A DNA stretch of 64,000 nt. Origin: Pseudomonas helvetica. GTDB taxonomy: Bacteria; Pseudomonadota; Gammaproteobacteria; Pseudomonadales; Pseudomonadaceae. The stretch lies in the NCBI RefSeq assembly GCF_039908645.1, contig NZ_CP150917.1:2801501-2865500 (forward strand). The letters are read 5' to 3'. Under the pieces are notes generated by a model. That model searched no databases. It worked only from the letters and a program-made list of their open reading frames with translations, and had not been told where the DNA came from. Positions 3,852 to 14,152 of this stretch are shown one piece after another (the first letter of the stretch is position 1; the number at the start of each line of letters is the position of its first letter). A program made the translations under genes and the position numbers.

Positions 3852-4196
3852 CTAATACCTCTCGGGGCACTTGAAGCCCCAGCCATCAACTATCAGATCT
3901 TTTACTTCTTCGCCAGTGGTGGTGATGCCTAGACATTCCTTGTTTCTCTTGTAGTTGAACTCGCAATATTGCACCCCTTGGGTGCATCTTTCGATTTCAC
4001 TAATACCCATGTTTTTAAGTATTACTGCAGTGCCAACCGACTGCATCTCATTCGGTAAACCTGGCTTCCAGCCATGTTTAATCAATGCTTTTCGTGCATT
4101 TAAGAATGACATTCCTTTTTTAATCGGAACATCTGTTGCGTTCGCAAAAAAGCTAACGCAACAGAGCAAAATGCAAGCAACAAGGTGTGGTTTCAT
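3852..4196 (-). CDS. small secreted four-cysteine protein, paralogue of 5445-5858
   Basis: 114 residues with a clear signal peptide (MKPHLVACILLCCVSFFANA, cleaved near Ala20) and an AT-rich gene unlike its GC-rich neighbours. The mature part has GMSFLNARKALIKHGWKP followed by a C-terminal half with four cysteines (pattern C-x6-C-x9-C, then CP near the end), consistent with two disulfides in the periplasm. The same order of motifs (GESL..AK.KLIKQGW, C, C, YTKNGVCL, T.GE...D, W...CP) recurs in the protein at 5445-5858, so the two are paralogues. I know no function for the family. Small disulfide-bonded periplasmic proteins next to lysozyme genes are often immunity proteins or lysozyme inhibitors, and that is my inference here. 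Confidence 0.8.
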   Translation of the reverse strand: MKPHLVACILLCCVSFFANATDVPIKKGMSFLNARKALIKHGWKPGLPNEMQSVGTAVILKNMGISEIERCTQGVQYCEFNYKRNKECLGITTTGEEVKDLIVDGWGFKCPERY

Positions 4197-4412
4197 TTAA
4201 GCGATCCGCCAAAGCTCTTGTGTGTGAAACCAGATAGTCCCATTGCTGTAATGCAATGGTCTCTCCATGAGCTTATCGTAATGTTTAAAAAATCTGTCGG
4301 CCGCCATGGTGGAGAAAAACGCTAAGGATGACGCCGTTTGCCAATCGTATGGTGCCAAGCCGGGGGAGTGATGCCTACGTGAATTGCAGGGCTCAGCGGG
4401 ACAAATAGCAAT
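4197..4412. other. intergenic stretch with no recognised gene
   Basis: 216 bases between the start of the small secreted protein gene and the 3' end of the SRAP gene. The promoter of the former should lie at the left. I see no repeat or terminator. Confidence 0.4.
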
Positions 4413-5090
4413 TCAGACCGGTTTGATCAGACTCGCGCCTTGGTTGCGCACATTACCAATGGCTGCGCTGACCTTGAACCATTCGAAGGCCTCGGACGGC
4501 TCTCCCTGTTGAATCATCATATGCTCGGCGCGCTCCTTGGGGGTGGTCGGGTCGAGCCATTCTCGTGCCACCTCGGGCGCCAGTGTTACCGGGCGTTGAT
4601 CGTGGATGTCCACTATGCCGCCTGCCGAATCGGCAGTGATGATCACGAAGCCGTCATACTCGCTGGGCGCGTGGTCGCCGCTCGGAAACTGGCCGATAGC
4701 AGCGCACAGGATCGGTGAGCCGTCCCGATGCCGGATCAAATAGGGTTGCTTCTTTGGCCCGCCCTCATCGACCCACTCAAACCAGTTGTTGATGGGGGTG
4801 ATTGCTCGGTGTGGCCAGATCGCCCGGTAGAATGGGCTATGCGCTACCTTTTCGACTCTGCCGTTCGGTTTCGCTGGCTGATCGGTTGCCCAATGCGGTC
4901 GCCAACACCACCTGACCAGGTCGGCGTACAGCGTGTCGCCCTCCTGGTGAAAGAGGGCGACCCTTGTTGTGGGGGCGACGTTGTATTGCTCGAGCGGCTG
5001 GTCGCCAACGGTGTTGACCAGAGCATTGGGCATGCTCAGCGCCGCCACGAAGTCGTGGATACCCTTGTATTGCGAAAGTCGTCCGCACAT
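4413..5090 (-). CDS. SOS response-associated peptidase (SRAP/YedK/HMCES family)
   Basis: An intact 225-residue SRAP protein. Cys2, exposed after removal of the initiator methionine in MCGRLSQY, is the catalytic residue that forms a thiazolidine crosslink with abasic sites in single-stranded DNA. The other hallmarks are present: YNVAPTT near residue 40, WFEWVDE around 110, and the conserved histidine of the DIHDQRP segment near 165. The family protects abasic sites at stalled forks. A second, ruined copy lies at 14410-15145. SRAP genes are often found near mobile DNA and mutagenesis genes. I see no LexA box directly upstream. Confidence 0.93.
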   Translation of the reverse strand: MCGRLSQYKGIHDFVAALSMPNALVNTVGDQPLEQYNVAPTTRVALFHQEGDTLYADLVRWCWRPHWATDQPAKPNGRVEKVAHSPFYRAIWPHRAITPINNWFEWVDEGGPKKQPYLIRHRDGSPILCAAIGQFPSGDHAPSEYDGFVIITADSAGGIVDIHDQRPVTLAPEVAREWLDPTTPKERAEHMMIQQGEPSEAFEWFKVSAAIGNVRNQGASLIKPV

Positions 5091-5232
5091 GGCTGAACCC
5101 TCAAGTTCAACCCTGAGTTTAGACGATCGTTTTCGGGCGCTCTATGAGGCCGTCCAACATACTGCCGAAGCAGTGCGCGCATTTGGGAGGGTGGGCCAAT
5201 GTGGGGTTTTGATGGGAGCTTGAGTGGGCTAG

Positions 5233-5408
5233 AACCTCCTGAGTTACACGCCCCAGCCTGCACAAACACCCGATTGGCTCATGGAAGAGCGCACGCCCGA
5301 CTTGCCCCGGCGCATGCTCGACGAATTATCGGCATCACCGACGACGGCGACCGAGGACTGATCGCTCTGGCTGCGTGCCAGGCGTCTGTGAGGGGGGGAT
5401 CACACTGA
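5233..5408 (+). pseudogene. decayed phage spanin end (Rz1/Rz overlap), copy A
   Basis: Two overlapping frames are preserved here. One, closing at 5361, reads TPQPAQTPDWLMEERTPDLP, which fits the proline-rich C-terminal part of an Rz1 outer-membrane spanin (lambda Rz1 has a Pro-rich tract, then AWIMQPPPDW). The other, closing at 5408, reads RIIGITDDGDRGLIALAACQ, which could be the end of the inner-membrane spanin Rz; nested Rz/Rz1 frames are the normal arrangement. No start or signal sequence remains, so this is a remnant. The same 114-base core recurs at 12186-12299. The assignment rests on motif reading and nested frames, not on a search. Confidence 0.5.
5281..5394 (+). repeat. direct repeat copy A (partner 12186-12299)
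   Basis: Aligning 5281-5394 with 12186-12299 base by base gives 17 mismatches in 114 positions and no gap, about 85% identity by hand count. Both copies sit in the same two reading frames of a spanin-like remnant. The similarity ends just after a shared TGTGAGGG. Confidence 0.85.
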
Positions 5409-5444
5409 AGCGCAATGACCGCAATTTTCGGCAATGGTCGGTCG

Positions 5445-5858
5445 CTAGCCCGCGCCGCGCTTACTTGGTTTTGGAGGTGCGTCAGGACACTCATCGGCCC
5501 ATCGCGTAACCGTCATGTCATTGAATTGCTCGCCGATAGTGTCTACGCGCAGGCAAACGCCGTTCTTTGTGTAGAACAAGATGCAACGCGAGCTATCAAA
5601 AGAGCAGACATCGACCTCATAGTACTTGTGCGCAGCCAGCTCACGCTCCACGCCACTATATTCATAGCCGTCGGCGGTATGTATCCGTGTCGGCGTCCAT
5701 CCTTGTTTGATGAGCTTGGCCTTGGCCGCGACCAAGGACTCACCGACGGCGATGCCTGCCGGCCCGCGCCTGTCGTTTGTCGCCTGCGAGCCATCCGCAA
5801 ACGCTGCATTGGCGCCAATGCAATAGAGGGCGATGAACGCGAGGATCGAAAGCTTCAT
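5445..5858 (-). CDS. small secreted four-cysteine protein coupled to a lysozyme remnant
   Basis: 137 residues with a signal peptide (MKLSILAFIALYCIGANAAFA), a helix GESLVAAKAKLIKQGWTP and a C-terminal four-cysteine module (VCSFDSSRC, NGVCL, ADECPD) matching the paralogue at 3852-4196. A basic, proline-rich tail follows. Its ATG overlaps the stop of the upstream lysozyme fragment as ATGA (5855-5858), so the two were translated as a coupled pair. A periplasmic disulfide protein made together with a peptidoglycan hydrolase suggests an immunity or inhibitor role, which is inference. Alternatively it may be an accessory secreted protein of unknown function. The gene itself looks intact. Confidence 0.78.
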   Translation of the reverse strand: MKLSILAFIALYCIGANAAFADGSQATNDRRGPAGIAVGESLVAAKAKLIKQGWTPTRIHTADGYEYSGVERELAAHKYYEVDVCSFDSSRCILFYTKNGVCLRVDTIGEQFNDMTVTRWADECPDAPPKPSKRGAG

Positions 5859-6106
5859 TTAACACTCCCTTCAGTCGATTTGTAGTTCGCCAAAAATTTT
5901 GAACATTCGACATACGGTTGCGGCGGGTAATGACTCGCTTTGCCAGGCCCTTCGGGAAGTGCCGCCCACCTCGTTGCCGCCTTCGGCATGGCTCCGGGGA
6001 TGTCGCCAGCCTTGATCTTGTCGATCACACCAAGGGTGCGTATGTCGACCGCGATGAGGTCTTGGGTGTTAGGCGTAAAGTCGGTAAGTCCCATCTTTTC
6101 CTCCAT
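5855..6106 (-). pseudogene. C-terminal fragment of a phage-type lysozyme (GH104-like)
   Basis: 83 codons reading GLTDFTPNTQDLIAVDIRTL, then IKAGDIPGAMPKAATRWAALP, then YPPQPY and KFLANY. This is the pattern of the C-terminal half of GH104-type phage endolysins (DF.P..QD.....I...G, WASLP, YGQP, FL..Y). The N-terminal half with the catalytic glutamate is missing, and similarity stops right at the ATG near 6106, where unrelated plus-strand sequence begins. It is therefore a truncated gene, cut by deletion or rearrangement, even though the remaining frame is open and starts with ATG. It overlaps the secreted protein gene downstream by four bases. Confidence 0.6.
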
Positions 6107-6272
6107 GAAAGAAGGGCATCAGTCTGCGCCGATGATCGTGCTCGGCAAAGGGCGGGAGCCAAAGGACGTGTCCGTTGCGGTTCAGGAGTACAACGGCACG
6201 CGCTTCATCAACGCGCCCGACGATATCCGGCGCTACCTGTCGTCACAGTACAGCGTCGTGCAGGCGTCGTAA
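6105..6272 (+). CDS. short ORF of unknown function, possibly a gene fragment
   Basis: 55 codons from ATG 6105; an inner ATG at 6132 gives 46. The segment REPKDVSVAVQEYNGTRFIN followed by APDDIRRYLSSQY has the composition of a real folded domain, unlike the other short frames nearby, but I do not recognise it. No convincing Shine-Dalgarno is seen. It starts exactly where the lysozyme fragment of the opposite strand ends, so it may itself be a piece joined by rearrangement. Confidence 0.35.
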   Translation: MKEGHQSAPMIVLGKGREPKDVSVAVQEYNGTRFINAPDDIRRYLSSQYSVVQAS

Positions 6273-9671: not shown

Positions 9672-9748
9672 CTACAAATGAATAGATGGGTAGCCAGTTC
9701 TACGTTTCGGGCTTGTTTGATGGGCTTTCTAATAGAAAGGGAATTTAT

Positions 9749-10237
9749 ATGTCATATGAAGGCGTAACTCGAGAAAAATTCTTTACTGTTTTTCCAAAAA
9801 TTGAAATACAGAAGGTTAGTCATAGTTGTTGGGCTGCGAGTTTTTCGGTATTGATGAGACTAAATGGTGTGCAGGTTTCGGAACAGGCTGTGATTGGTTT
9901 CTATCCTGAGTGGGTTTATGATGGTATTACCTTTGATCAGTTGTATAGTCTTGCTGAATATTATAATAAGTTTCATTTTTCAAAGGAGAGCGGACTTGTA
10001 CATGGCGTGCGCGAGATTAAGGCCTATAAAAAGCTGGAGCCGATTTTGCAGTATGCAGGTCAGTATTCAGGTTTTTTGGTTTTTGTTAAGCAGCACTATG
10101 TAGTGGTGCTTGGCTATGATGCTGCTGCTAGTACAATTGATTATTATGATCCTTGGTTCGGAGTTATTGAGACGTGCGATCTACAATATTTTTTGAAATG
10201 GGGTACTCAGCACACATTAGTAGTTGCTGGGGATTAA
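9749..10237 (+). CDS. papain-like cysteine peptidase (C39-like fold), AT-rich
   Basis: 162 residues from ATG 9749, chosen because AAAGG lies 8 bases upstream; an in-frame ATG at 9686 has no such site. Cys27 (VSHSCWAASFSVL), His116 (KQHYVVVLGYD) and Asp134 (YYDPWFG) form the order and spacing of a papain-like catalytic triad as in Pfam Peptidase_C39_2 proteins. There is no signal peptide and no transporter domain. The gene is visibly AT-rich, a sign of transfer. Such single-domain peptidases occur as secreted effectors or as RiPP leader peptidases. Here it has neither an ABC transporter nor an obvious partner, except possibly the small opposite-strand peptide at 9391-9522. Confidence 0.7.
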   Translation: MSYEGVTREKFFTVFPKIEIQKVSHSCWAASFSVLMRLNGVQVSEQAVIGFYPEWVYDGITFDQLYSLAEYYNKFHFSKESGLVHGVREIKAYKKLEPILQYAGQYSGFLVFVKQHYVVVLGYDAAASTIDYYDPWFGVIETCDLQYFLKWGTQHTLVVAGD

Positions 10238-12095: not shown

Positions 12096-12317
12096 TGCCT
12101 CGGTGTGTGTCAGTCCTCATCGACGCAGCGGATTCAGCCAGTGGTTGCGCAGTGCCAACCGCTACCGGCGCCGGCAGTGTGGTTCATGAAGGAGCGCGCG
12201 CCCGACTTGCCCCAGCGCATGCTCAACGAATTATCGGCATCACCGATGACGGTGATCCGGGATTGATCGCGCTGGCGACATGTCAGGCGTATGTGAGGGA
12301 GGTTAATCAATGGGGGT
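12096..12317 (+). pseudogene. decayed phage spanin end (Rz1/Rz overlap), copy B
   Basis: One frame, closing at 12266, contains LGVC followed by QSSSTQ, QCQPLPAPAVWFMKERAPDL and a short tail. This matches the architecture of mature lambda-type Rz1: lipobox cysteine, short linker, Pro-rich tract, W-x-M, P-D. The overlapping frame reads RIIGITDDGDPGLIALATCQ and AYVREV, fitting the end of an Rz protein. No proper signal sequence or Rz N-terminus remains. Its core is 85% identical to copy A at 5281-5394, and the repeat unit is 12186-12299. Confidence 0.5.
12186..12299 (+). repeat. direct repeat copy B (partner 5281-5394)
   Basis: Ungapped 114-base match to 5281-5394 with 17 mismatches by hand count. 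Differences fall in both overlapping frames without creating new stops in either, so the two copies diverged while still coding or recently after. Confidence 0.85.
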
Positions 12318-13318: not shown

Positions 13319-14152
13319 TTATGGAGTTGCTTGCTGCCAATCACCAATTAGCTCCTCCGTCCCTTGCTTGTCTACGCGGTAGACCTTCCCGTCTCGAACT
13401 AATTCGGCATAACCTTCAAAGAAAAAAGCGCGCTTGTCATAGCGCATAGGGATTATGACCTTGCCAGCTTTATCAATGAACCCCCATTTACCATCGATTG
13501 CCACTGTGAAAAGATTATCATTGAGGTATTTTCCGGCCCACACATTATAAGCAATTTGATCATAATTTAACGGCGTTAACTGATTGCCTTTCATGTCGTA
13601 TATCATGCCGTCGCGTGCGCCTTTAAAGGCAATTATAACCCCTTCGGAAATAGATGGTTTGGTCCTAAGTACTGGCTCAATTATGTTGCGCCCTGCAGTA
13701 TCAATAACTCCCCAGCCATGTTCTCCCTTTACTATCGCAAGGCCTCCGTGCTCGTCTCTGAAGTAGTCTATCTCTTTATACAGAAGAGAGATAACTATAT
13801 TTCCCTTTGCGTCTAGATATCCGCACTTGCCTTCAGTGCAAACACCAACAAGTCCATGATTGAAATTCAAACCTTTATCATACTCGAAGGGTATAGCGAT
13901 TCCCCCGTTCTGATCGATATAGCCTATCTTCTTGTCTATTCTTGCAATGCTTATACCTCCCTTAAATAGCAATACATTTTTGTAGATTGGTGGAATCACA
14001 ATCACACCATTCTTATCTTTAGCCCCCCAGCTTCGATTCAGCTCAAAGGGAATCGGATACTCGTCAGCATTATTATTTCCAGCAGATGCGTGGCTGGAAA
14101 AAATGCAAAAAACAAAAAAATACAAACCCCATATCACTCGTACAGCAACCAT
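13319..14152 (-). CDS. secreted WG-repeat protein, AT-rich
   Basis: 277 residues with a signal peptide (VRVIWGLYFFVFCIFSSHAS) and several WG/KWG beta-repeats: WGAKDKNGVIVIPPIYKNV, GYIDQNGGIAIPFEYDKG, CGYLDAKGNIVISLLYKE, WGVIDTAGRNIIEPVLR and WGFIDKAGKVIIPMRYDK. The repeats form a beta-rich scaffold of unknown function in many bacteria. The gene is AT-rich compared with its surroundings. Secreted WG-repeat proteins are frequent among orphan genes in polymorphic-toxin islands, which is where it sits, but a link to immunity is only inference. Confidence 0.85.
   Translation of the reverse strand: MVAVRVIWGLYFFVFCIFSSHASAGNNNADEYPIPFELNRSWGAKDKNGVIVIPPIYKNVLLFKGGISIARIDKKIGYIDQNGGIAIPFEYDKGLNFNHGLVGVCTEGKCGYLDAKGNIVISLLYKEIDYFRDEHGGLAIVKGEHGWGVIDTAGRNIIEPVLRTKPSISEGVIIAFKGARDGMIYDMKGNQLTPLNYDQIAYNVWAGKYLNDNLFTVAIDGKWGFIDKAGKVIIPMRYDKRAFFFEGYAELVRDGKVYRVDKQGTEELIGDWQQATP

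Follow-up and report, generated by a model that had tools for sequence, protein, structure and literature searches.

What are the two small four-cysteine proteins encoded on the minus strand near the start of a 64,000-nucleotide stretch of the Pseudomonas helvetica genome (contig NZ_CP150917.1, positions 2,801,501 to 2,865,500; hereafter the window), one of which overlaps the remains of a lysozyme gene? A preliminary description, made from the sequence alone, proposed that they are immunity proteins or lysozyme inhibitors, and our follow-up finds it right in substance: they belong to a small and as yet unnamed protein family with a predicted immunity role, here as orphans, one of them beside an effector remnant. 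The window proteins are probably orphan immunity proteins of the periplasm, with two specificities between them, directed against a PAAR-linked, lambda-type lysozyme that a type VI secretion system (T6SS) would inject. In some relatives the family members directly follow intact lysozyme and PAAR genes, and the window genes are therefore likely leftover immunity genes, predicted to shield the cell wall from a lysozyme that neighbouring bacteria would deliver.

To survey the family, we searched 398 Pseudomonas genomes with a 23-row family profile and, separately, with a second profile built on six near-intact lysozymes. The resulting carrier numbers are lower bounds, with up to 11 family and up to eight lysozyme first-look candidates scored per genome. 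The four-cysteine family is carried by at least 34 of the 398 genomes, and a near-intact, close lysozyme (E ≤ 4.3e-101) was found in 11. The preliminary description had proposed looking for intact lysozyme or spike genes beside the family, and this is the arrangement that we observed: a four-cysteine gene lies directly behind the near-intact lysozyme in 11/11 genomes, and an open gene for a 165-amino-acid (aa) PAAR protein lies 6-136 bases upstream of that lysozyme in 10/11 (the reference copy matches the PAAR domain PF05488 at E 3e-17). At the remaining locus (L109; L numbers denote loci and G numbers genomes), no PAAR gene was found upstream of the near-intact lysozyme. The ATGA overlap that had been noted between the lysozyme fragment and the second four-cysteine gene is present in the window and recurs at the lysozyme/four-cysteine junction of all 13 near-intact pairs (the 11 of the survey plus L021 and L025), so it is not accidental. 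Counting any lysozyme-type match raises the number of genomes to 65, with an adjoining family member in 17 (11 near-intact, six remnants only); in the other 48 the matches are distant and unlinked to the family. An earlier set of 17 loci, which shares some genomes with the 398-genome draw, contained an intact lysozyme in four cases, a remnant or broken copy in seven and none in six.

Two further observations concern the surroundings of these loci. The window genome (G000) has two TssC loci, but T6SS genes are also present in 32 of 34 non-carrier genomes, so their presence adds no weight; the neighbours of the family loci that were scanned included no recognisable T6SS core gene. Four loci (L100 4914-5603, L107 5101-5790, L108 8502-9188 and L125) encode a conserved 229-aa protein close to the PAAR gene; its L100 copy has no Pfam or NCBIfam match.

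The window itself retains a damaged version of this layout (Table 1). The minus-strand order is lysozyme remnant, A-subtype four-cysteine gene, a gene at 5090-4413 that we take to be of SRAP/YedK type, and the B-subtype four-cysteine gene, for which no adjoining lysozyme match was found in the window. At its broken 5′ end the lysozyme remnant, whose match stops at 6097 (tblastn), meets what is left of the 3′ part of a DUF3088 gene on the opposite strand, and this places a rearrangement breakpoint at about 6090-6098. The closest relative that we found, Pseudomonas fluorescens FW300-N2E3 (L020), is arranged in the same way. The window genome carries four family copies, two in the window and a tandem pair at 3.50 Mb. 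There, a second decayed locus (G000:C1:3502.7-3503.6 kb; L110 6723-7608) consists of a lysozyme B tail followed by two B-type four-cysteine genes. No intact lysozyme of this lambda-like type was found in the window genome.

Table 1. Features of the four-cysteine/lysozyme locus, numbered from the first nucleotide of the window (ORF, open reading frame).
Feature	Position	Strand	Remarks
Four-cysteine protein, B subtype, orphan	3852..4196	-	114 aa; homologous to A subtype
Four-cysteine protein, A subtype	5445..5858	-	137 aa; preceded by lysozyme remnant
C-terminal remnant of lysozyme A	5855..6106	-	83 aa; spans about residues 121-201 of the full 201, less one codon
ATGA overlap, lysozyme-remnant stop/four-cysteine start	5855..5858	-	Read in sequence
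DUF3088 gene, 3′ fragment	6090..6272	+	Pfam PF11287, E 9e-10, residues 51-106 of ORF 5940-6272

The assignment of the fragment to a GH104-type lysozyme is borne out by its matches to phage lambda lysozyme (3D3D/1AM7, E 6e-6) and to the endolysin family phrog_90 (E 5e-9), lambda-type lysozymes being, as we assume, GH104 enzymes. Its identity to the C-terminal region of intact relatives is 81%, and the catalytic domain of the fragment is incomplete. The profile of the six near-intact enzymes matches 3D3D at E 5e-17 and 1AM7 at E 6e-17, and within this alignment the Glu of lambda lysozyme, E19, which we take to be the catalytic residue, corresponds to a Glu invariant across all six. As the window remnant begins near residue 121, it lacks this Glu. 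The near-intact lysozymes are free-standing proteins of about 184-207 aa and, judged by eye, have no signal-peptide-like start, unlike the four-cysteine proteins.

The two window four-cysteine proteins are homologous to each other (28% identity over a near-full-length alignment, E 5e-14). Their shared architecture stood up to closer inspection in its coordinates, homology and four cysteines, and the N-termini look like signal peptides by eye; the helix motif first given as KLIK.GW is looser, namely LIKxGW (KLIKQGW and ALIKHGW). Across the 23-row family alignment W54, G69, E81, C85, C92, Y96, C102, T107 and G109 are invariant and C124 is kept at ≥90%, and structure models of the A- and B-type proteins have an identical order of elements. 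Neither window protein has a match above the Pfam or NCBIfam cut-offs or any PHROG, PADLOC or PDB sequence match; the A protein scores 18.6 bits against PepSY_2 (PF13670), below the gathering cut-off of 24.3. When 61 family members were scanned against Pfam-A, only four families were matched at E ≤ 0.1 (PepSY_2, Ntox30, Rad21_Rec8 and PASTA), PepSY_2 by 28 of the 61 with a best E of 3e-5. Known lysozyme inhibitors in Pfam, such as LprI/DUF1311, MliC/PliC and Ivy, were thus matched by none of the 61. The literature passages that we surveyed contained no description of a PAAR-lysozyme-four-cysteine module.

Both partners fall into two types that pair consistently. Lysozyme A is followed by a four-cysteine gene of the 5445-5858 type and lysozyme B by one of the 3852-4196 type in 13 of 13 near-intact pairs (six A, seven B). 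The lysozyme and four-cysteine distance matrices correlate with r 0.96, a value reached by 0 of 20,000 permutations, and the correlation persists within A (r 0.88, reached by 191 of 20,000 permutations) and within B (r 0.96, reached by 109 of 20,000). Lysozymes of types A and B are 71-75% identical in three stretches of residues 1-120, 55% over residues 121-150 and 47% over residues 151-201, while same-type enzymes are 77-92% identical over residues 121-201. As the two types differ most there, the comparison suggests that the C-terminal lobe may be the part of the lysozyme that is read by its four-cysteine partner.

Several relatives carry both types in one array. In L104 and L106 the order is PAAR, lysozyme B, immunity B, lysozyme A tail, immunity A; L111, L112 and L114 have this order without the effector, and L103, L107 and L108 have immunity B followed by immunity A with no lysozyme tail between them. 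The lysozyme A tail of L104 has decayed into several separate pieces and the four-cysteine gene behind it is retained. L104 and L106, with the effector present, and L111, L112 and L114, with the effector absent, thus show the layout expected of an immunity array built by sequential displacement. The window shows only a decayed form, and the most fitting reading is of such a locus at a later stage of decay.

We also noticed recurrent surroundings of the arrays. A convergent DUF6124 gene stands behind 24 of 34 A-type four-cysteine stretches, and for 23 of these the distance is 133-173 bases (seen at L099, L103-L106, L111, L112, L114, L118, L126-L135 and L138); none was found adjoining the window copies. 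The nine family-carrying genomes that we counted hold 20-39 DUF6124 copies each, and this gene may therefore give recombination a handle by which arrays grow. In seven regions that hold B-type orphans or fragments (L113, L115, L117 and L121-L124), these lie in one other chromosomal slot, flanked each time by the same two genes.

We then asked whether the orphan genes are maintained. Regions were fetched for 33 of the 34 carriers (40 regions); G243 was left out, as were short matches in G029, G036 and G348, and these five rows at four places would count as broken orphans. Together with the window, the 41 regions hold 61 family stretches, 11 behind a near-intact lysozyme and 50 not. Counting a stretch as open when ≥90% of the query is stop-free, 44 of the 50 orphan stretches are full-length, and an in-frame ATG, GTG or TTG lies near the expected start in 41 of these 44 (absent in three). 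Leaving out the first 20 aligned codons and all pairs with a synonymous rate (dS) outside 0.05-1.2, the median pairwise ratio of non-synonymous to synonymous rates (dN/dS) was 0.24 for A orphans (345 of 351 pairs kept) and 0.19 for B orphans (19 of 136), and for lysozyme-paired copies 0.17 in A (6 of 6) and 0.14 in B (7 of 21).

These figures bear on the suggestion that the window copies are non-functional relics of immunity origin, a reading that is compatible with ours and that we consider rather unlikely. The effector and the PAAR gene are indeed lost from the window locus, and window immunity A differs from its counterpart in L020 by seven non-synonymous and three synonymous changes. This ratio indicates that constraint on immunity A may be relaxed in the window lineage. 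Set against it are the completeness of both window ORFs, with all four cysteines present, and the orphan dN/dS of about 0.2. If, instead, the four-cysteine protein were a helper made with the lysozyme, for example a chaperone of the periplasm or an additional effector, co-translation through ATGA would be equally expected, and the inhibitor role is itself a prediction. However, most orphans without an enzyme are open, and arrays keep the four-cysteine gene while the enzyme tail decays, as in L104; this would be expected of immunity rather than of a helper function, which we regard as improbable. Least probable is a leftover prophage lysis cassette, with the lysozyme as its endolysin and the four-cysteine protein in an accessory lysis role. 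The enzyme does belong to the phage lambda type and has relatives in 375 phage records, all below 60% identity, and integrase-like genes lie near two loci (L100 and L136); yet a PAAR gene precedes nearly every near-intact lysozyme, and neither window four-cysteine protein matches any of 50,697 phage records at E ≤ 1e-5.

The immunity interpretation is thus supported, and the immunity role itself is one that we infer from the layout of the genes and general knowledge of T6SSs, as we do export, periplasmic disulfides, lysozyme binding and inhibition, PAAR-borne delivery and kin protection. Under this interpretation, the lysozyme would enter neighbouring cells mounted on the PAAR spike tip and cut peptidoglycan there. 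The four-cysteine protein would be exported, fold with disulfides in the periplasm and bind the lysozyme, the C-terminal lobe of the enzyme being the probable site. A displaced module A in the window may have lost its PAAR gene and the catalytic part of its lysozyme in a rearrangement involving the DUF3088 gene; the immunity genes would have been left behind and may still protect against kin that retain the effectors. As for the fold, small alpha-beta proteins of the BLIP, BamE and OsmE-like kind offer a candidate likeness only.

T6SS peptidoglycan hydrolase effectors with immunity partners include Tae/Tai and Tge/Tgi, and Carobbi and colleagues reportedly described a lysozyme-like effector of Pantoea in 2022. 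TsiP is described as neutralising lysozyme activity (PMC11893102), and TseP/TsiP and its kin resemble the present system in joining a cell-wall enzyme to an immunity partner; here, in contrast, the enzyme is of the lambda (GH104) type and stands behind a separate PAAR gene, and the window four-cysteine proteins fall below family cut-offs in the libraries searched. WHIX T6SS effectors have a lambda lysozyme-like toxic domain and flanking genes for predicted secreted proteins (PMC12135965), in both respects like our loci, but their lysozyme domain is a C-terminal extension of the WHIX protein, whereas ours is free-standing. Immunity arrays of Vibrio cholerae have been explained as the outcome of a newly arrived effector-immunity module displacing an older effector (Kirchberger 2017, PMC5361080). 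The new module there lies before the 3′ end of the old effector and its retained immunity gene, as in L104 and L106, although genus, enzyme and immunity family all differ. The kind of system is already known; the family, the two-subtype pairing and the displacement scars are new.

Elsewhere in the window we noted three features. A 183-aa protein encoded at 9686-10237 (+) in a low-GC patch matches Peptidase_C70, a family of AvrRpt2-like proteases of the papain type, with 24.6 bits against a cut-off of 19, and its L020 copy is 99% identical. A protein encoded at 13319-14152 (-), secreted-looking by eye, has six WG beta repeats (PF14903, E 1e-34). Similar translations (RLAPAHAxRIIGITDDGDxGLIALAxCQA) occur at about 5280-5400 and 12190-12310 (+), in both disturbed regions.

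A bolder and tentative proposal, to which we would give slightly less than even weight, is that the small alpha-beta four-cysteine protein represents a previously undescribed class of lysozyme inhibitor in the periplasm, one that recognises the C-terminal lobe of lambda-type lysozymes in an allele-specific way, and that Pseudomonas stacks the immunity genes of both alleles as a record of past attackers, some with the effector tail as a fossil. If our interpretation is true, an unannotated immunity family and its enzyme would be named, and Pseudomonas genes now called "hypothetical protein" would become predicted defence genes. Two matched allele pairs, together with natural arrays, would make the displacement model directly testable, and the question of the binding site, namely why the A/B difference falls in the C-terminal lobe, would likewise be open to direct testing.
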